NCBI GenBank assembly: GCA_902581775.1
Contig: CACHPJ010000008.1
Location: 1 to 39,499, forward strand
Direction of reading: 5' to 3'
DNA: 39,499 nt
DNA from: an uncultured Pelagibacteraceae bacterium
GTDB lineage: Bacteria > Pseudomonadota > Alphaproteobacteria > Pelagibacterales > Pelagibacteraceae
The position numbers and the translations under genes are program-made. The notes below the pieces were generated by a model. It was given only the letters and a program-made list of their open reading frames with translations. It was not told the origin of the DNA and ran no database searches. Positions 26,299 through 33,724 of this stretch are shown here, piece after piece (the first letter of the stretch is position 1; every line of letters starts with the position of its first letter).

Positions 26299-27138
26299 AT
26301 GATTATTGACGGAAAAAAATTATCAGGAGAGTTGATTGAGGAAATTAAAAAAGAGGTTTTAAATTTAAAAAAAGATGGGAAACTAATTGGTCTTTCAGTA
26401 ATATTAATTGGGGAATATCCACCAAGTCTAATCTATGTAAAGAATAAAGAGAAAAGAGCAAAAGAGGCAGGTATTAACTCAGAAATCATTAAGTATTCTG
26501 CTGATATTACTGAAAATGAGGTGCTAAGTAAGATAAAAGAACTTAATAAAAATAGAGAAGTTTCAGGCATTCTTGTACAATTGCCTTTACCCAATCACAT
26601 AAATAAAGAAAAAATTATAAACGCTATCGACCCATTGAAAGATGTTGATGGTTTTCATCCTATAAATGTAGGCAACTTGGCTTCAGGCAACAGTTCAATT
26701 GTTCCCTGCACGCCTTTAGGATGTTTACATCTTATAAAAAGTGTAGAAACAAATTTAAGTGGGAAACATGCGGTAATTTTAGGAAGATCTAACTTAAACG
26801 GTAAACCGATGGCACAACTTTTGCTTAAAGAAAATTGTACTGTAACAATTGCCCATTCTAAAACTATAGACCTAAAATCTGAGTGTAAAAAAGCAGACAT
26901 CCTAGTTGCGGCAGTAGGGGCAAAAGAATTAGTCAAGGGAGATTGGATAAAAAAAGGTGCAATAGTTATCGATGTAGGAATTAATAAAATTAATGACAAA
27001 ATTGTTGGAGATGTTGAATTTAATGCCACTAAAGAATTAGCCAAAGCCATAACACCTGTGCCTGGGGGAGTGGGGCCAATGACTATAGCGTGTCTTTTAA
27101 AAAATACACTTGAGTGCTTCAAAAAAACAAATTTGTAA
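26299..27138 (+). CDS. folD: Bifunctional methylenetetrahydrofolate dehydrogenase / cyclohydrolase
   Basis: Converts 5,10-methylene-THF to 10-formyl-THF in one-carbon metabolism, supplying formyl donors to enzymes such as PurH. It has 279 residues. Motifs: YVKNKEKRAKEAGI with the catalytic Lys (about 50-63), ILVQLPLPNH, DVDGFHPINVG, the NADP-binding ILGRSNLNGKPMAQLL, and the C-terminal TPVPGGVGPMTIACLL. It ends the hemC-hemD-channel-yggT-folD run. Confidence 0.97.
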   Translation: MIIDGKKLSGELIEEIKKEVLNLKKDGKLIGLSVILIGEYPPSLIYVKNKEKRAKEAGINSEIIKYSADITENEVLSKIKELNKNREVSGILVQLPLPNHINKEKIINAIDPLKDVDGFHPINVGNLASGNSSIVPCTPLGCLHLIKSVETNLSGKHAVILGRSNLNGKPMAQLLLKENCTVTIAHSKTIDLKSECKKADILVAAVGAKELVKGDWIKKGAIVIDVGINKINDKIVGDVEFNATKELAKAITPVPGGVGPMTIACLLKNTLECFKKTNL

Positions 27139-27166: not shown

Positions 27167-28648
27167 ATGAAGTTATTTCTAATATTAGGAAATCAATTAT
27201 TTAACACAAAATATTTAAATAATTTTAAAGATCATATTTTTTTTATGGCTGAAGATTATGGTTTATGTTCTTTTGAAAAACACCATAAATTAAAGATTCT
27301 ATTATTCTTATCATCAATGAGATCTTTTAGGGACGAGTTAAAATTTAAAAAATTTAATCTGATATATTATAATGTAAGTAAAGATTTTAAACTTAAATAT
27401 GAAAAAAAAGTTGAAAAAATTATTAAAGAAAAAAAGATAAAAGAAATTTCTTTTTTTGAAATCGAAGATAAGTTTTTTGAAAAGAGAATTTTAACTTTAT
27501 GTAAAAATAATTCTTTAAAGGTAAATCAAATTAAGTCACCCATGTTTCTCATAGATAGGAATGAGTTCAAAAATTACCTTTCAAAAAATAAACGACCTTT
27601 TATGGCTAACTTTTACAAAATTGTGAGAACAAAAATGAATTTATTAATGAATAAAGATGGGACGCCCAAAGGAAATAAATGGAGTTTTGATGAAGAAAAT
27701 AGAAAAAAACTTCCTAAAATAATAAAAATTCCAGAAATTTCTAAAGCAAAGGAAACCAAAAATACCCTAGAGCTTAAAAAATTTATTAATTCCAATTTTA
27801 AAAATCATCCAGGTAATACTGATCAATTTTGGTTTCCAACTACAAGGCAAGACGCAAATATATGGTTGGACAAATTTTTAAAAGAAAGAATAAAATTATT
27901 TGGAGACTATGAAGATGCAGTGACCGATAAGTCTAATACTGTTTTTCATAGTGCTTTAAGTCCATTAATTAATATAGGTTTAATCACACCCGAGGAAATA
28001 ATAGATAAGATTAAAAAAATTGAAAACAAAGTACCTATTAATTCTTTAGAGGGTTATATTAGGCAAATTATTGGTTGGAGAGAGTTTATGAGAGGAATTT
28101 ATCAAAATTATGAAAATAGATTAGAAAAAACAAATTTCTTCAATCACAAAAGAAACATGAAAAATTCTTGGTACAATGGAACAACAGGGTTAGATCCTCT
28201 AGATCACGCGATAATAAATGCAAAGAATTATGGGTGGTCTCATCATATTGAAAGACTAATGATACTATCCAATATCATGAATCTTTGTGAGATAAACCCT
28301 AAGCAAGTTTATAAATGGTTCATGGAAATGTTTGTAGACTCCTCCGATTGGGTCATGGCTCCAAATGTTTACGGTATGGGTCTTTTTAGTGATGGAGGAA
28401 TTTTTGCCACAAAACCTTATATTTGTGGTTCAAGTTATTTTTTGAAAATGATGCATTTTAAAAAAGGACCTTGGTGTGATGTGATGGATGGATTATATTG
28501 GAAATTTATTGATAGACATAAAAAGTTTTTTTTAAAAAATCCTAGACTTGCAATGATGGTTAGAATTTCAGAAAAAATGAATAAAGAGAGAAAATCTAGA
28601 ATCTTTAAAGCCGCAAACAGCTTTATAAAGGAGAATACTAATGGTTAA
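27167..28648 (+). CDS. Photolyase/cryptochrome-related protein of the FeS-BCP (PhrB) type with altered cluster ligands
   Basis: A 493-residue protein. The N-terminal alpha/beta antenna domain is about 1-130 (LFLILGNQLF...). The helical FAD domain is about 210-470, with FPTTRQDANIWLDKFL, EGYIRQIIGWREFMRG and YGWSHHIERLMILSN. FeS-BCP enzymes repair (6-4) photoproducts using FAD and a 4Fe-4S cluster held by four Cys. Here C373 is in place, but the YC-x2-C pair is absent; the segment reads YICGSSYFLKMMHFKKGPWC with C420 and C437. So the cluster is probably absent or held differently. It leads a run with the DCC and DUF2256 genes. Confidence 0.88.
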   Translation: MKLFLILGNQLFNTKYLNNFKDHIFFMAEDYGLCSFEKHHKLKILLFLSSMRSFRDELKFKKFNLIYYNVSKDFKLKYEKKVEKIIKEKKIKEISFFEIEDKFFEKRILTLCKNNSLKVNQIKSPMFLIDRNEFKNYLSKNKRPFMANFYKIVRTKMNLLMNKDGTPKGNKWSFDEENRKKLPKIIKIPEISKAKETKNTLELKKFINSNFKNHPGNTDQFWFPTTRQDANIWLDKFLKERIKLFGDYEDAVTDKSNTVFHSALSPLINIGLITPEEIIDKIKKIENKVPINSLEGYIRQIIGWREFMRGIYQNYENRLEKTNFFNHKRNMKNSWYNGTTGLDPLDHAIINAKNYGWSHHIERLMILSNIMNLCEINPKQVYKWFMEMFVDSSDWVMAPNVYGMGLFSDGGIFATKPYICGSSYFLKMMHFKKGPWCDVMDGLYWKFIDRHKKFFLKNPRLAMMVRISEKMNKERKSRIFKAANSFIKENTNG

Positions 28649-28988
28649 AGTCTTTTTTAATAATTCTTGCAATATATGTAGGTCAGAAATTAATCACTAT
28701 AAAAAATATTCTAACGATAATTTAGAATGGATTGATGTAACAAATAATCAAGAAGCTCAAAAACTAACCTCAAAATCTTATAAAGAACTTTTAAGAAGAA
28801 TGCATGTTATCAAAGATGGAAAAATAATTGATGGAGCAGAATCCTTCTTAATCATTTGGAAAAACATACCTAAATATAATTTTTTATATAAAATTTTTAA
28901 AATTAAACCTTTGTTTTTTTTATTAAATATATTTTACGAGATAGCAGCTTATTTTTTATTTATTAAAAACAAGCATCTTCTCAAGTGA
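28641..28988 (+). CDS. DCC-family thiol-disulfide oxidoreductase-like protein (DUF393)
   Basis: A 115-residue protein with the DUF393 pattern: an N-terminal beta strand leading into C10-N-I-C13, then a NYLEWIDVT-type strand (here NLEWIDVTN), and a MHVIKDGKIIDGAESFLIIW motif in the middle. The C-terminal third is hydrophobic. These proteins look like thioredoxin-fold oxidoreductases, but the physiological partner is unknown. DUF393 genes often neighbour photolyases. It overlaps the photolyase-like gene by 8 nt and the DUF2256 gene by 4 nt. Confidence 0.88.
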   Translation: MVKVFFNNSCNICRSEINHYKKYSNDNLEWIDVTNNQEAQKLTSKSYKELLRRMHVIKDGKIIDGAESFLIIWKNIPKYNFLYKIFKIKPLFFLLNIFYEIAAYFLFIKNKHLLK

Positions 28989-29128
28989 TAAAAAAATCTA
29001 ATTTACCTAAAAAAATCTGTTTAATATGTAACAGATCTTTTTCATGGCGAAAAAAATGGCGTTTAAATTGGAAGGCAGTAAAATATTGCTCTCAAAAGTG
29101 TGCTGGAGTAAAAAAAACGCAAAAATGA
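28985..29128 (+). CDS. DUF2256 protein, 47-residue zinc-ribbon-like
   Basis: A tiny gene starting with GTG (28985) and ending in TGA (29126-29128). It has the DUF2256 pattern: an N-terminal NLPKKICLICNRSFSWRKKW stretch (residues 6-25) with one CxxC (C12, C15), followed by WKAVKYCSQKCAG (29-41) with a CxxxC (C35, C39). The four Cys suggest a bound zinc. DUF2256 occurs beside photolyase/cryptochrome genes in many marine bacteria; its role is unknown. It overlaps the DCC gene by 4 nt and the next gene by 4 nt, so translation appears coupled. Confidence 0.9.
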   Translation: MIKKSNLPKKICLICNRSFSWRKKWRLNWKAVKYCSQKCAGVKKTQK

Positions 29129-29673
29129 AGATCTTACTTTACTTTATAATTATTTTTAATCTTTATAATACGAGCCTTATCGCTTCTGATGAAATAATAA
29201 ATAAACTTAAAGAAGGTAAAAAAATAGTATTTATTAGACACGCAATAGCTCCAGGGGGAGGAGATCCTCCAAATTTTGACTTATATAATTGCAATACACA
29301 AAGAAATTTAAGCAAAAAAGGAGTACAACAATCTAAGAACCTTGGATATTTTTTTGTTAAAAATAAAATATTAATTGATAAAGTTTTAAGCAGTGAGTGG
29401 TGTAGATGCAAAGATACCGCTAAATTTGCCTTCAAAGAATTTGAAACATTTGATGGCTTAAATTCTTTTTTTTCTGAAAAATTTAGAAAAAACAAAAAAA
29501 ATCAGATCAGTAAATTAATTAAATACATAGAAAATTGGGACGGAAAAGGAAATTTGATTTTAGTTACCCATTATGTTGTAATTTTAGAAATGTTAGACAA
29601 AACTGTTACTTCTGGTGAGATTGTTGTTGTAGATAAAAATTTAAATTATTTAGGAAGTATAAACAAATATTAA
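29125..29673 (+). CDS. Exported histidine phosphatase family protein
   Basis: A 182-residue member of the phosphoglycerate-mutase-like superfamily. A signal peptide covers about 1-21 (hydrophobic core LLYFIIIFNLY). The catalytic RHA motif is R38-H39-A40 in VFIRHAIAPGGG; E91 and the second His H149 in LVTHYVVILEM complete the site. The frame is open from 29044, but that stretch overlaps DUF2256 in another frame, and Met at 29125 begins a proper signal peptide. Substrate unknown; it is presumably a periplasmic phosphatase. It ends the photolyase-led run. Confidence 0.86.
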   Translation: MKILLYFIIIFNLYNTSLIASDEIINKLKEGKKIVFIRHAIAPGGGDPPNFDLYNCNTQRNLSKKGVQQSKNLGYFFVKNKILIDKVLSSEWCRCKDTAKFAFKEFETFDGLNSFFSEKFRKNKKNQISKLIKYIENWDGKGNLILVTHYVVILEMLDKTVTSGEIVVVDKNLNYLGSINKY

Positions 29674-29727
29674 AAAAAAGTAGGTTTGTCACAGATTACT
29701 TTATTAGATATTATTGTATTATAATTT

Positions 29728-30054
29728 ATGTGCCCAGTTTGTTGGATATCAGGATTCATAGCCGCTTTATTTGGCGGATCCTTAATAGCTGTAGTTAATC
29801 ATCCTATTTCTTGGATTTTAAGTTTAATGCTAATTTCATATGGAGTATATAAATTTTATGAAGCCAAACAAAGAGGAAAAAAAATGTCTTTTGACACAAA
29901 GAGTAAAAATAAAAAAACAATATTTAGATTTGTTCAGGGAGTAGTAGTTGGGTCTTTTGTAACAATTATAGTCTTTTACAGCTTAACTTATAAAGAGCAC
30001 GAAAGAATGCACGATCTTTTAGAAAAACACGGTATTGAGAAGCACGAACATTAG
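29728..30054 (+). CDS. Small membrane protein with an N-terminal CxxC and His-rich tail
   Basis: A 108-residue protein I do not recognise. It begins MCPVCWISGF, giving a CxxC at residues 2-5, followed by hydrophobic segments at about 7-44 (two helices) and 69-88. The C-terminal 20 residues contain five His (HERMHDLLEKHGIEKHEH). The Cys pair and His tail could bind a metal, but nothing confirms this. It follows the phosphatase by 54 bp and its 3' end overlaps the convergent photolyase-like gene by 4 nt. Confidence 0.72.
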   Translation: MCPVCWISGFIAALFGGSLIAVVNHPISWILSLMLISYGVYKFYEAKQRGKKMSFDTKSKNKKTIFRFVQGVVVGSFVTIIVFYSLTYKEHERMHDLLEKHGIEKHEH

Positions 30055-31187
30055 TTGATTTTTAACTTAGATAATATTTTTGGGATGTTTGATTTAAAAT
30101 TAAAAAATCCTTTGTTGGAAAATTGCCAACTAAATTCATCCTCCTCTCTTGTCAGAAAATTATAACTAAGTGATTTTTTTTTTTTAATATTCCTCAAAAA
30201 AGACAAATTTTCACCAATCGATGGATAAATTATATCAAAAGCTTTTATAGTATCAGTCAAATCTTTAAATTTATCTTCTTCAATAACTTTTATCTTTTGA
30301 TATCTTTTTGCCTGATCAATAATTAACGCTTTTTTATAATTCAAAACTTTATCATCAATTTTAATCTGACGGTTTTCATTAGTAAGTAAAATACAATAAA
30401 CCTCTTTATATGTTTGTAAATTTAAAGTTTCTATATTTAGGTCATTTTCAAACAAAATGAGAACTTCATTTTTTTTTTCACTTTTTTCTATTTCTAATGG
30501 TTTAGCCTTATATTCTCTATCATCTATTATTGGAGAAGCATTTTCATTCAGATTGATGTTTTGATATTTATTATTAGTAAACTTTTTAATGTTCCATGAT
30601 TGTGCAACATATTGTTTTCCTCTGGTTTGAAGACCAGCAACCCACCTCCAACTTAAAGTATTTGATGCTGCATCACCATCAAACAAATACCTCATAAAAA
30701 ATTCAGCACCTTTTTGCCATGGTAAATGTAAAGTAAAAATCCAAATACTAGCGAACCACATTCTGGTATGATTGTGCAAATAATTGCTTTCTTTAAGTTC
30801 TTTTACCCAATCATTGAAACAATCAATTTGAGTTTTCCCATTTATTGCATTTTTATAATTCTTATCTTCTTCAATATTATTCAAATCTTCCAAAAAATCT
30901 GACCAAACATTTGGTCTAAGTTCTAGCCACCCCTTCCAATAAACTCTCCAAAAAATTTCTTGAATATATTTTTCTACTTTTTCAACAGGGTATTTTGACA
31001 AAACTTTCTTAGCTGTTTCATATTCAGTAATTAAGCGATGCGATATATAAGGAGATAAACCAGAAACATTATCTCTATTTTTTACTCCAAAATCGAAATT
31101 TCTTTTTGAAGTATAATTCAAAATATTTTTCTCGACAAAATTATTAAGCTTACCTAACGCGCCAGATCTTGTAGTTTCAAAATACAT
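30051..31187 (-). CDS. Photolyase-superfamily FAD-domain protein with a C-terminal alpha/beta-like extension
   Basis: A 378-residue protein. Residues 1-208 match the FAD-binding helical domain of photolyases and cryptochromes: VSGLSPYISHRL (41-52), FWRVYWKGWLELRPNVW (79-95), LHNHTRMWFASIWIFTLHLP (137-156) and ASNTLSWRWVAGLQTRGKQY (174-193). The usual N-terminal antenna domain is missing. Residues 240-378 instead alternate strands and helices (EVLILFEND, VYCILLTNE, KALIIDQ, FDIIYPSIGENL), as in an alpha/beta domain. Whether it repairs DNA or senses light is unknown. The start at 31187 overlaps the stop of the small membrane gene; an upstream Met at 31268 lies inside that gene. Confidence 0.85.
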   Translation of the reverse strand: MYFETTRSGALGKLNNFVEKNILNYTSKRNFDFGVKNRDNVSGLSPYISHRLITEYETAKKVLSKYPVEKVEKYIQEIFWRVYWKGWLELRPNVWSDFLEDLNNIEEDKNYKNAINGKTQIDCFNDWVKELKESNYLHNHTRMWFASIWIFTLHLPWQKGAEFFMRYLFDGDAASNTLSWRWVAGLQTRGKQYVAQSWNIKKFTNNKYQNINLNENASPIIDDREYKAKPLEIEKSEKKNEVLILFENDLNIETLNLQTYKEVYCILLTNENRQIKIDDKVLNYKKALIIDQAKRYQKIKVIEEDKFKDLTDTIKAFDIIYPSIGENLSFLRNIKKKKSLSYNFLTREEDEFSWQFSNKGFFNFKSNIPKILSKLKIN

Positions 31188-31393
31188 TAATTTTCGTCGT
31201 CTTCCTCTCTCCATCCATCGATAAATAATTTCCAACAAGCCCAAGTTACACAAGGTATACCTACACAAAATCCCAATAGAACTCCATTGTGTCTACCTAA
31301 ATGTATTGAGCCGAAGTGCGCACTTAAAATCGGAGGCAAAATTAATACAGAGGCAACTATTATATATCTAAAAATAAATGGAGGTCTTTTCAA
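31187..31393 (-). CDS. Small membrane protein upstream of the photolyase-like gene
   Basis: A 68-residue protein with hydrophobic segments at about 7-25 and 37-56, a basic N-terminus and a strongly acidic tail (GWREEDDEN). No known family recognised. Its stop overlaps the photolyase-like start by 1 nt, so the two are almost certainly translated together; it lies 26 nt after the SDR gene. The layout suggests a membrane partner for the soluble flavoprotein, which is inference. Confidence 0.7.
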   Translation of the reverse strand: MKRPPFIFRYIIVASVLILPPILSAHFGSIHLGRHNGVLLGFCVGIPCVTWACWKLFIDGWREEDDEN

Positions 31394-31419
31394 ATTGAAA
31401 TTCCTTAAAAATAAATACT

Positions 31420-32136
31420 TTAACCTATATTGGATCTTCCACCGTCAACTCCTATGATTTGACCAGTAATCCATGAACTTTCATCAGAGAGTAAAAAATT
31501 TGCTAAGGCCGCTGAGTCCAAACCTTCTCCCAATCTTTTCATTGGATGTTGTTTTGCGATAGCCTCTAAGATTTTTGGATTCTTTAACATTTTAGAGGAC
31601 ATTTTCGATTTACTTAAACTCGGAGCAATACAATTTACTCTTACATTAGGTGCCAATTCAGAAGCAAGTGAAACAGTAAGCCCTTCTAAAGAAGCTTTCA
31701 CTGGAGATATGATGCTATGATTAGGGAAGCCTTGTTTAACAGCAATCGTAGAAAATAGTACTATAGAAGACTTATTCTTTTTTAAATTGTCTTGAAATTT
31801 TTTTATTATTTCTACTATAGGAAACAGATTTAGGTTGAAACTGTTAATATAATCTTTTTTAGATATCAGGTTAATTGGTTTTAAGTCTATAGAGCCAACA
31901 CAATATGCTATTCCAGATATATCGACATCACCTAAATCTTTCTCAACTTTCTCCAAATAATCTTCCTGCAAAACATCTGCAACAGTGTAACTAAATCCAG
32001 TTTCTTGATTTAGACTTTCAACTTCATCTTTATTTTTAGCAATTAAATGAGCTTCTAAATTTTTCTTTTTTATCAATTTTGTAAGTGAACTTCCTACCGC
32101 CCCTGTTGCCCCAACTATCACAAATTTTTTTTTCAT
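31420..32136 (-). CDS. SDR-family oxidoreductase lacking the catalytic tyrosine
   Basis: A Rossmann-fold protein of 238 residues. The dinucleotide loop is GATGAVGSS at 9-17, a D-V pair is at 54-55, and the C-terminal SSWITGQIIGVDGGRSNIG is standard for the family. The YxxxK signature is missing its Tyr: the sequence is IISPVKAS with Lys at 147 and Ile at the Tyr position (143); T130 stands at the Ser position. Activity as a normal dehydrogenase is therefore doubtful. SDR genes accompany photolyases in other marine bacteria. It is 14 nt after psiE and 26 nt before the small membrane gene. Confidence 0.88.
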   Translation of the reverse strand: MKKKFVIVGATGAVGSSLTKLIKKKNLEAHLIAKNKDEVESLNQETGFSYTVADVLQEDYLEKVEKDLGDVDISGIAYCVGSIDLKPINLISKKDYINSFNLNLFPIVEIIKKFQDNLKKNKSSIVLFSTIAVKQGFPNHSIISPVKASLEGLTVSLASELAPNVRVNCIAPSLSKSKMSSKMLKNPKILEAIAKQHPMKRLGEGLDSAALANFLLSDESSWITGQIIGVDGGRSNIG

Positions 32137-32150
32137 ATCAAAAACAACTT

Positions 32151-32537
32151 TTAGATATCGTTCGTTTTTTTGTCGTCTATTTTAAGAAACTTACTATTTC
32201 TAAGTCTTATAATCACTGTTGCAATCGCTACTATTAATATTGCAGACGAAATATAAACTAGGTTTGATGGGTCATCATTTTTATCTTGAAGAATTATATA
32301 TCTTGCTAGGGCTGTAATAGCTATAACCATAGGATATGAAATTCTAACCGATCTTGTCTCCCAATATGATCTGACTAATCCTATTACTTCAATATATATA
32401 AACATTAATAATAAATCTGCTAGCTCAATACTTCTTTCAAGGTACATATCTTTAATTTCTAAAAGAAAGGCTATTACAGTGGCAACCAAAACAAACATTA
32501 CTGCTGTTAATTGTATATTTCTTATTGTTGAATTCAT
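32151..32537 (-). CDS. PsiE-family membrane protein
   Basis: A 128-residue protein with four hydrophobic segments. The family pattern is visible: a first helix, then LLLMFIYIEVIGLVRSYWE, then RISYPMVIAITALARYIIL (about 63-81). E. coli PsiE is induced by phosphate starvation; function unknown. No Pho box is evident, since it is 8 nt after argG and presumably transcribed with it. The final 25 residues are hydrophilic. Confidence 0.85.
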   Translation of the reverse strand: MNSTIRNIQLTAVMFVLVATVIAFLLEIKDMYLERSIELADLLLMFIYIEVIGLVRSYWETRSVRISYPMVIAITALARYIILQDKNDDPSNLVYISSAILIVAIATVIIRLRNSKFLKIDDKKTNDI

Positions 32538-32545
32538 TTTTGTTT

Positions 32546-33724
32546 CTATTTTTTTAAATTTATAGCATGAAAATTTATAAATTTTTCAACTTTTTTTTTA
32601 TTAAACGATTTATTTTCTTCAAAAGAAACTTTTTTCATTGAGTAAGCTTTATTTTTAGTTTGCCTAGATAAAATTATCATATTTCCCTTATAAATTTTTA
32701 GGACAACTTGTCCTGTAACCAATTTTCTATTTTTATCAACAATTTTTTGTAGCTTAAATCTTCTCTTTGAAAACCAATAACCATTATAGACTAGTTCCGC
32801 ATACTCAGGCATTATTCTATCTTTCAAATGCATTGTTTTTTTGTCTAATGTTACCGATTCCATTGCCCTATGTGCAAAATATAAAATTGTTCCTCCTGGA
32901 GTTTCGTATACCCCTCTGGATTTTATTCCTAAAAATCTATTTTCAACCAGATCTACTCTGCCAACTCCATTTTTTCCACCTATTAAATTTAACTTTTCTA
33001 AAAGTTTTTCAGGTTTTAGTTTTTTATTATTAACTGATATTGCATCACCATTTTTAAAGCCAATTTTTACTATTGAAGCAGTGTTAGGAGTTCTTTCTAA
33101 TGGCTTAGTTTTTTGAAAAATAAATTCTGGTGCTGAATTTTTAGGATTTTCCAAAACCTTTCCTTCCGTTGAGGTGTGAAAAATATTATCATCTACTGAA
33201 AATGGTGGTGCACCCTTCTTATCTTTTGGAATAGGAATTTTATTTTTTTTTGCATACTTAATAAGGTCCGATCTTGACTCAAGTTTCCACTCCCTCCATG
33301 GCGCGATTACTTTAATTTTTTTTCCAAAATACGAGTATGCTAATTCAAATCTTACTTGGTCGTTACCTTTCCCAGTTGCACCGTGTGAAACCGCGAATGC
33401 ATTTATTTTTTTAGCGATTAAAACCTGTCTTTTACCAATTAGCGGTCTTGCTATCGAAGTACCCAAGTAATACATTCCTTCATATAAAGCATGAGCTCTT
33501 ATCATGGGAAAAACATAATCTTTTACAAATATATTTTTTAAATCCTCAATTATAATTTTTTTTACACCTAGTCTTTTTGCGTTCTTAATTATTTTCTTTT
33601 TATTCATAATCTGACCAATATCCGCTGTATAAGCTACTACTTCAGAGTCGTAGTTTTCTTGAAGCCACCTTAAAATTATTGATGTGTCTAGGCCGCCAGA
33701 GTAAGCAAGAACAATTTTTTTCAT
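32546..33724 (-). CDS. argG: Argininosuccinate synthase
   Basis: Joins citrulline and aspartate with ATP in arginine synthesis. The ATP-pyrophosphatase motif AYSGGLDTS is at residues 7-15. Later conserved stretches are GTSIARPLI, the AVSHGATGKGNDQVRFEL region (112-129) and ENRFLGIKSRGVYETPGG. It has 392 residues, about normal. The C-terminal 40 residues are rich in Lys. The ATG overlaps the upstream IalB-like stop by 1 nt. No other arg genes are in the window. Confidence 0.96.
   Translation of the reverse strand: MKKIVLAYSGGLDTSIILRWLQENYDSEVVAYTADIGQIMNKKKIIKNAKRLGVKKIIIEDLKNIFVKDYVFPMIRAHALYEGMYYLGTSIARPLIGKRQVLIAKKINAFAVSHGATGKGNDQVRFELAYSYFGKKIKVIAPWREWKLESRSDLIKYAKKNKIPIPKDKKGAPPFSVDDNIFHTSTEGKVLENPKNSAPEFIFQKTKPLERTPNTASIVKIGFKNGDAISVNNKKLKPEKLLEKLNLIGGKNGVGRVDLVENRFLGIKSRGVYETPGGTILYFAHRAMESVTLDKKTMHLKDRIMPEYAELVYNGYWFSKRRFKLQKIVDKNRKLVTGQVVLKIYKGNMIILSRQTKNKAYSMKKVSFEENKSFNKKKVEKFINFHAINLKK

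Follow-up and report, generated by a model that had tools for sequence, protein, structure and literature searches.

To our knowledge, photolyases have hitherto been regarded as self-sufficient enzymes. Prokaryotic (6-4) photolyases of the iron-sulfur type (FeS-BCP), such as AfPhrB, CryB and the Caulobacter enzyme of structure 9hnk, carry a four-cysteine [4Fe-4S] ligand pattern. PMC9178010 describes a subgroup M, including PromaPL of Prochlorococcus, of prokaryotic (6-4) photolyases with diverse antenna cofactors that lack both the iron-sulfur cysteines and an intact Trp-Trp-Tyr-Tyr chain; the same text gives a methionine near flavin N5 as common, not universal, outside subgroups A, B and G. 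Another class, NewPHL/SPL, is marked, according to PMC13274461 and PMC9178010, by an N-terminal flavin adenine dinucleotide (FAD) domain, a C-terminal alpha/beta domain, cyclobutane pyrimidine dimer (CPD) site residues and a spread in Alphaproteobacteria. Here we analysed a stretch of 39,499 nucleotides (hereafter the window; contig CACHPJ010000008.1, assembly GCA_902581775.1) from an uncultured Pelagibacteraceae bacterium of the SAR11 lineage, in which nine genes at positions 27,167 to 32,537 encode two different photolyases, the small protein DUF2256, a short-chain dehydrogenase/reductase (SDR) lacking its catalytic tyrosine, and five further proteins. We conclude that the locus is probably a photoreactivation island, made up of photolyases for different lesions and of two accessory proteins whose genes accompany that of the (6-4) photolyase.

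The first photolyase of the window (DPRP) belongs to the same family as the FeS-BCP enzymes, but the four-cysteine cluster pattern is absent from it. With subgroup M as described it shares the full-length DPRP architecture, the lack of the four cysteines, the methionine near N5 and the broken electron chain; the likeness is one of described features, and the window differs from PromaPL in its SAR11 lineage and in an operon with DCC and DUF2256. The second photolyase shares with NewPHL/SPL all the features listed above. As in Synechococcus sp. PCC 7335, two different photolyases are encoded together; in that strain they form a tandem operon in which one enzyme is bifunctional and CPD/(6-4)-like (PMC9649867), and the window genes are convergent, belong to two other classes and are joined by accessory genes.

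The (6-4) photolyase of the island lacks the iron-sulfur ligands

DPRP (27167..28648, plus strand, 493 amino acids; PF04244, E = 1.6e-55) had the Caulobacter chain 9hnk as its nearest solved relative (E = 4.7e-74), with 4dja at E = 1.4e-65 and scores in the range of 223-253 bits, and it aligned over nearly its full length with 9hnk, CryB and AfPhrB. The AfPhrB residues His365, His366 and Tyr424 are all retained, as a His-His pair and a KPY motif (positions counted by hand). The two histidines and the tyrosine belong to the repair site, and structure 5lfa, titled as a Y424F mutant with impaired repair, bears on the tyrosine.

The four-cysteine ligand pattern was not found in DPRP: AfPhrB Cys350 is replaced by proline and the CxxC pair is missing. 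When a ten-residue deletion was placed according to 9hnk, the CxxC cysteines faced lysine and proline and the last cysteine was deleted; when it was placed according to AfPhrB, the CxxC was deleted and the last cysteine faced aspartate, with a conserved cysteine adjacent. We then aligned 123 DPRP sequences, leaving out proteins shorter than 430 amino acids, those with fewer than about 380 aligned residues and exact duplicates. The CxxC...CP pattern appeared in 13 of the 123 rows, every one at 36% identity or less, and was missing from all 110 rows that reach 45% identity (including the window and its copy L058), so that 108 other relatives likewise lack the four ligands.

In the electron chain, AfPhrB Trp342 corresponds to tyrosine, Trp390 is kept, and Tyr391 and Tyr395 both correspond to phenylalanine, while Glu403, near flavin N5, is replaced by methionine. 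On its sequence, DPRP thus fits the subgroup M pattern in ligands, chain and methionine. In the antenna pocket the equivalents of Leu8, Gly9, Glu33, His43, Lys47 and Met55 are retained, Asp10 is replaced by asparagine, and neither residue of the Glu37-Arg108 salt bridge is retained. Identity to most relatives within the genus was 84-89%, which suggests strong constraint. In one genome (L079, G029:C1:166237-167716) the DPRP gene is broken by in-frame stops and a frame change, reflecting either sequencing error or decay.

The second photolyase has the inverted domain order of NewPHL

The second photolyase gene (30051..31187, minus strand, 378 amino acids; FAD_binding_7, E = 1.1e-16) was given a TTG start in the automatic list of open reading frames, and its relatives start at the ATG at 31187. 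Its FAD domain comes first (residues about 1-219), followed by an antenna-like alpha/beta domain (about 240-345) and a tail; no N-terminal antenna domain is present. A model built from 39 homologues reached a mean pLDDT (predicted local distance difference test) of 95.6, and its residues 1-219 matched photolyase FAD domains, with Z = 16.5 to 2j07 over 210 residues at 2.6 Å; the same search also returned one mitoribosomal protein at Z = 15.0. The C-terminal 150 residues modelled alone gave a pLDDT of 88.9. The top 18 VIA rows for this part were all N-terminal antenna domains of photolyases or cryptochromes (Z = 8.4-6.5), the best being that of 8ijy (Z = 8.4, 103 residues, 2.8 Å). Two points speak against this antenna match: the next VIA fold, at Z = 6.4, lies just under the photolyase rows, and Foldseek alone ranks phosphopantetheine adenylyltransferases (PPAT) first, with photolyases from rank 11.

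Glu77, Trp80, Asn139 and Met143 align with CPD-site residues of 1tez, which contact the dimer, and are identical in 39 of 39 sequences. Among 18 PDB sequences found by phmmer with this protein, none was named NewPHL. In domain order and CPD-site residues the second photolyase fits the published NewPHL/SPL class. Some SPLs are reported to carry a four-cysteine set, and the window protein does not. The earlier note, made from the letters of this DNA and its open reading frames, had seen two unusual photolyase relatives here; two different photolyases are indeed present, yet both fit described classes. The window genome encodes three photolyases in all, the third having 473 amino acids and a class III enzyme, 4u63, as its nearest solved chain (E = 3.2e-112).

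NewPHL matches were found in 37 class genomes. All 34 that were counted also hold DPRP; G435, G436 and G441, which apparently lie outside the DPRP sample, are not among the 34. Eight of the 37 (L115 in G090, G319, G397, G078, G309, G389, G273 and G278) gave weaker matches and hold only short frames of 246-309 amino acids, perhaps short photolyase-like proteins made of the FAD domain without the C-terminal domain. A viral origin of NewPHL was rejected: 163 IMG/VR stretches matched the query pattern and none was confirmed, and ten phage records were 25-27% identical over about half of the protein, the two annotated ones being named phrB. On the megaplasmid of Ruegeria sp. TM1040 (L318:5971-7203), a NewPHL homologue annotated as 'FAD-binding domain-containing protein' adjoins an AarF/UbiB kinase gene, and none of the SAR11 island genes was found in the 13 kb around it. 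On plasmid CP012852.1 of Persicobacter sp. JZB09 (Bacteroidota; L317:6911-11258, minus strand), three photolyase-type genes follow one another on one strand, encoding a NewPHL-like protein (28% identical), a 493-residue photolyase-like frame and an iron-free DPRP.

DUF2256 tracks the (6-4) photolyase beyond SAR11

DUF2256 (28985..29128, plus strand; PF10013, E = 2.7e-18) is a zinc-ribbon-like peptide of 47 amino acids with four cysteines and a GTG start. We counted DUF2256 and DPRP in 299 Pseudomonadota genomes and found both in 57, DPRP only in 9, DUF2256 only in 9 and neither in 224; in a class sample of 357 genomes the corresponding numbers were 86, 18, 8 and 245. The class overlaps presume that the smaller samples are nested in the larger, as their numbering suggests, and the phylum counts have the same n both ways. 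Fisher p-values of 9e-42 and 2e-54 overstate independence, the genomes being related, and the family count is safer: 21 of the 25 families with DUF2256 or DPRP include a genome with both. Among the 57 dual Pseudomonadota genomes, the two genes lie on one contig in 48 and within 6 kb of each other in 32, spanning 15 families. In 14 control genomes DUF2256 was found in two, Caulobacter and S. elongatus, both with DPRP, which also occurs in Haloferax; FAD_binding_7 matched in seven, among them E. coli and Corynebacterium, which have neither DUF2256 nor DPRP. These results show that DUF2256 tracks the (6-4) photolyase beyond SAR11.

The order DPRP-DCC-DUF2256 also occurs outside SAR11, in three genomes of genus g14 (L260-L262). 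Long open frames of DUF2256 and DPRP overlap in a few genomes; a fusion was rejected, the frames differing in the two genomes checked by coordinates (G627, G492). In G653 (C1:1047857-1048475), which has no DPRP match, about 50 bp separate DUF2256 from a different FAD_binding_7 domain, so that DUF2256 may act with a broader range of photolyases. In the open-licence literature we found no described association of DUF2256 with photolyases; the DUF2256 papers there deal with other topics.

The SDR has lost its catalytic tyrosine and adjoins DPRP in several lineages

The SDR-fold protein (31420..32136, minus strand, 238 amino acids; PF13561, adh_short_C2, E = 3e-37) shares the fold, the GATGxxG motif and the lysine of classical SDR oxidoreductases, but it lacks the catalytic tyrosine of their YxxxK motif, and the site of their NNAG motif reads CxGS. 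The missing tyrosine had already been pointed out in the earlier note, and we found isoleucine at that position in the window and either isoleucine or valine in every one of 89 close homologues; the tyrosine persists in four distantly related SDRs of these loci. At E <= 1e-32 the SDR was detected in 9 of 142 class genomes, window included; the other eight members, from other alphaproteobacterial families, lack the tyrosine without exception (8 of 8). Five of the nine (G000, G181, G156, G093 and G090, window included) have the SDR no more than 3 kb from DPRP, and in G191, G188 and G169 it is located elsewhere. In G397 and G319 it stands directly upstream of DPRP, and in Mesorhizobium terrae a tyrosine-less SDR is encoded two genes upstream of an iron-sulfur-type DPRP. 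The M. terrae plasmid (L320:1-9503) gathers MsrPQ, the tyrosine-less SDR, CIA30, DPRP, hemH, NUDIX, a further photolyase and TspO, a group that looks like a photo-oxidative stress cluster.

The earlier note had named DUF393, DUF2256 and SDR genes as known photolyase neighbours in marine bacteria. DUF2256 and the SDR do associate with photolyase beyond SAR11, and in the open-licence literature we found no described photolyase link for DUF393 plus SDR, or for a tyrosine-less SDR.

The core of the neighbourhood recurs in part of SAR11

Of 36 further genomes from the genus of the window, 24 contain a close NewPHL homologue, as do 2 of 24 genomes of a sister family. Around these 26 loci, on contigs of which some are short, we counted DUF2256 in 23, the 68-residue membrane protein in 23, DPRP in 22, DCC in 22 and the SDR in 21; in the two sister-family loci (L055, L057) NewPHL stands alone. 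A wider set, hereafter the named loci, comprised the best 80 of 571 loci by NewPHL similarity (53-71% identical), which is a selected and not a random sample. All of them come from Pelagibacteraceae, Pelagibacterales or Candidatus Pelagibacter ubique HIMB058, and five are on the same contigs as loci of the 26-locus set. With presence thresholds of 40% identity for the SDR and 45% for the 68-residue protein, DUF2256 was present in 75, DPRP in 71 and the SDR in 64, followed by DCC and PsiE (38 each), the 68-residue protein (31), the phosphatase (5) and the 108-residue protein (3). When only named loci with 6 kb or more of sequence towards DPRP were considered, 61 of 63 hold DPRP, DUF2256 and the SDR beside NewPHL, and DPRP is convergent with NewPHL in 61 of 61; the exceptions are two solitary NewPHL genes, at L184 (same contig as L055) and at L185.

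The block is not tied to one site. It adjoins argG in many loci and lies between folD and argG in some, L054 keeps nearly the entire gene order of the window, and in 21 loci (L032-L052) the block occupies a site without the flanking genes of the window, with the SDR, where seen, beyond DPRP. The set thus stays together with or without folD and argG as flanks. Missing co-occurrence, which the earlier note had named as refuting its reading, was not what we found: the gene set recurs in many relatives, more than chance would give, although in G158, from another genus of the family, its genes are scattered. DPRP, DUF2256, the SDR and the NewPHL-like gene make up the common core; the phosphatase, DCC, PsiE and both small membrane proteins seem to be neighbours and not components.

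Gene order, variable neighbours and flanks

All nine genes were located by open reading frames and by Pfam and NCBIfam searches, in two compact runs whose ends meet tail to tail, as the earlier note had described them. On the plus strand, DPRP and DCC overlap by 8 bp, DCC and DUF2256 by 4 bp, and DUF2256 and the phosphatase by 1 bp at 29128; on the minus strand, the 68-residue membrane protein and NewPHL overlap by 1 bp at 31187; the two runs overlap each other by 4 bp.

The DCC1-like thiol-disulfide oxidoreductase (28641..28988, plus strand, 115 amino acids; PF04134, E = 1.4e-16) keeps its CxxC motif and is the sole DCC match in the incomplete genome that holds the window (890 kb, 76.7% complete). 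A histidine phosphatase-like protein, probably exported (29128..29673, plus strand), matched NCBIfam PRK06193 under its cut-off (E = 7.1e-24), and its Pfam score was 21.1 against a cut-off of 21.7 bits. For the 108-residue membrane protein (29728..30054, plus strand) Pfam gave nothing above cut-off, and the 68-residue membrane protein (31187..31393, minus strand), whose stop overlaps the NewPHL start, had no Pfam or NCBIfam match. The remaining minus-strand gene encodes a PsiE-family membrane protein (32151..32537; PF06146, E = 1e-18). On the left the island is flanked by folD (26299..27138, plus strand) and on the right by a gene that we take from its sequence to be argG (32546..33724, minus strand), the two genes between which the island lies in several loci. 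As a general rule, a methenyltetrahydrofolate (MTHF) antenna supplied by the neighbouring folD was ruled out: of the 15 named loci showing both genes, just 6 have folD no more than 60 bp from DPRP, and elsewhere the SDR or further genes intervene.

Some SAR11 loci carry variable inserts between DUF2256 and NewPHL (L189:8131-11926, L226:8134-11661), which encode FG-GAP/ASPIC-UnbV, GATase, DUF4174 and fasciclin proteins and a cysteine-rich protein of 229 amino acids without a Pfam match. In one SAR11 cell (L154:8133-10742, minus strand) an 869-residue open reading frame occupies this gap; judged by eye, its product looks like a cyclic-nucleotide-binding protein with acyltransferase and GDSL-like parts.

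Discussion

The island probably serves to repair DNA damage inflicted by sunlight with the energy of that same sunlight. Both photolyases would use blue or UV-A light taken up by reduced FAD. Judging from its conserved residues, DPRP would repair (6-4) photoproducts, and the NewPHL-like protein would repair cyclobutane dimers, probably in single-stranded DNA, with dimers in duplex DNA presumably left to the third photolyase, which is nearest to class III. DUF2256 and the tyrosine-less SDR are candidate accessory proteins of the (6-4) photolyase branch. As a best guess, DUF2256 would assist either the enzyme or on the DNA itself as a small partner of zinc-ribbon type, and the SDR would spend NAD(P)H to keep the flavin reduced, which is plausible because hydride transfer to a flavin needs no acid tyrosine. 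A more specific version, in which DUF2256 is a dedicated partner of DPRP (for instance a zinc-ribbon subunit assisting in the finding or opening of lesions), the SDR is an NAD(P)H-dependent flavin reductase that maintains reduced photolyase FAD in the dark, and both form a multi-protein photorepair module together with NewPHL, is offered tentatively, as a possibility rather than an expectation. Each of the two photolyases adds a member to a class already described. No description of their association with DUF2256 and the tyrosine-less SDR was found in the open-licence literature, and this partnership is a lead worth testing.

Several observations weigh against a photoreactivation island of this composition. 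A close NewPHL is missing from 12 of the 36 genus genomes, including G021 (94% complete), though many of these genomes are incomplete. In G158, which represents another genus (g5) of the family and consists of one contig, DPRP (111681), DUF2256 (167094) and NewPHL (322383) lie at least 54 kb apart, and the SDR was not found there at E <= 1e-32; at the g5 loci L119 and L120 (the latter in G435) NewPHL is solitary, and outside SAR11, 14 of 23 NewPHL loci (L121-L143) have no other island gene nearby. The SDR is scarce, with 9 of 142 class genomes and only five of these nine placing it within 3 kb of DPRP, and G160 carries it without a DPRP match. The pairing of DUF2256 with DPRP is not strict: 9 of 66 DPRP genomes lack DUF2256, 9 of 66 DUF2256 genomes lack DPRP, and the control Haloferax has DPRP without DUF2256. 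Among 23 chosen genomes, FAD_binding_7 was found in 9 of 9 with DUF2256 only (one below cut-off) and in 8 of 14 sampled from the 224 with neither. Finally, the AfPhrB Trp/Tyr chain is not intact in DPRP, which altered photochemistry would fit too, and the DPRP relative CryB is reported, in PMC9178010, to regulate gene expression.

The last two points lead to blue-light or redox sensing, in which DPRP and NewPHL would be cryptochromes that relay the state of their flavins to the SDR, DCC and DUF2256. The genes that CryB reportedly regulates are those of photosynthesis and energy metabolism (PMC9178010), the electron-transfer chain of DPRP is altered, and an SDR without its catalytic tyrosine could be a nucleotide sensor. 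However, the repair-site residues are kept in both photolyases (His, His and Tyr in DPRP; Glu, Trp, Asn and Met in NewPHL), none of the nine genes matched a Pfam family of transcription factors, kinases or sigma factors, and DCC is present in fewer than half of the named loci (38 of 80). By analogy with CryB a light or redox sensing role is possible; we consider it unlikely. The retained repair sites and the lack of regulator-type matches also tell against the proposal of the earlier note that the genes form a system beyond DNA repair, as does the finding that five of the nine genes are variable neighbours.

A further alternative is mere adjacency without a functional link, in a gene-collecting region of streamlined SAR11 genomes. 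It is favoured by the variable inserts, the coming and going of the phosphatase, PsiE and the membrane proteins, and the scattered genes of G158. Yet many families with large genomes combine DUF2256 and DPRP, often as near neighbours, the SDR adjoins DPRP in other families (in Mesorhizobium terrae it stands two genes upstream), and the SAR11 set stays together irrespective of its folD and argG flanks. Because links exist outside SAR11, adjacency without function is disfavoured for DUF2256 and the SDR, and as an account of the whole island it is quite improbable; for the phosphatase, PsiE and the membrane proteins it stands. A role of DUF2256 in inserting an iron-sulfur cluster into the (6-4) photolyase, at which the conservation of its four cysteines and its common place beside DPRP might hint, is very improbable, since 17 of 17 class genomes outside the window with an iron-free-type DPRP (L229-L245; 16 typed by residues, L245, with a broken frame, by identity only) carry DUF2256, which is therefore not there for the cluster.

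Many SAR11 genomes, but not all of them, share the gene set. SAR11, which is abundant in the ocean, inhabits sunlit surface water that is poor in iron, and an iron-free (6-4) photolyase and a dimer photolyase of inverted topology fit this habitat. The wider point is that DUF2256 often, and the tyrosine-less SDR in some lineages, accompany the prokaryotic (6-4) photolyase. Should these two proteins prove to be functional partners, the photolyases of this branch would not be stand-alone enzymes, and two protein groups without an assigned role would become testable in cultured Caulobacter or a cyanobacterium.

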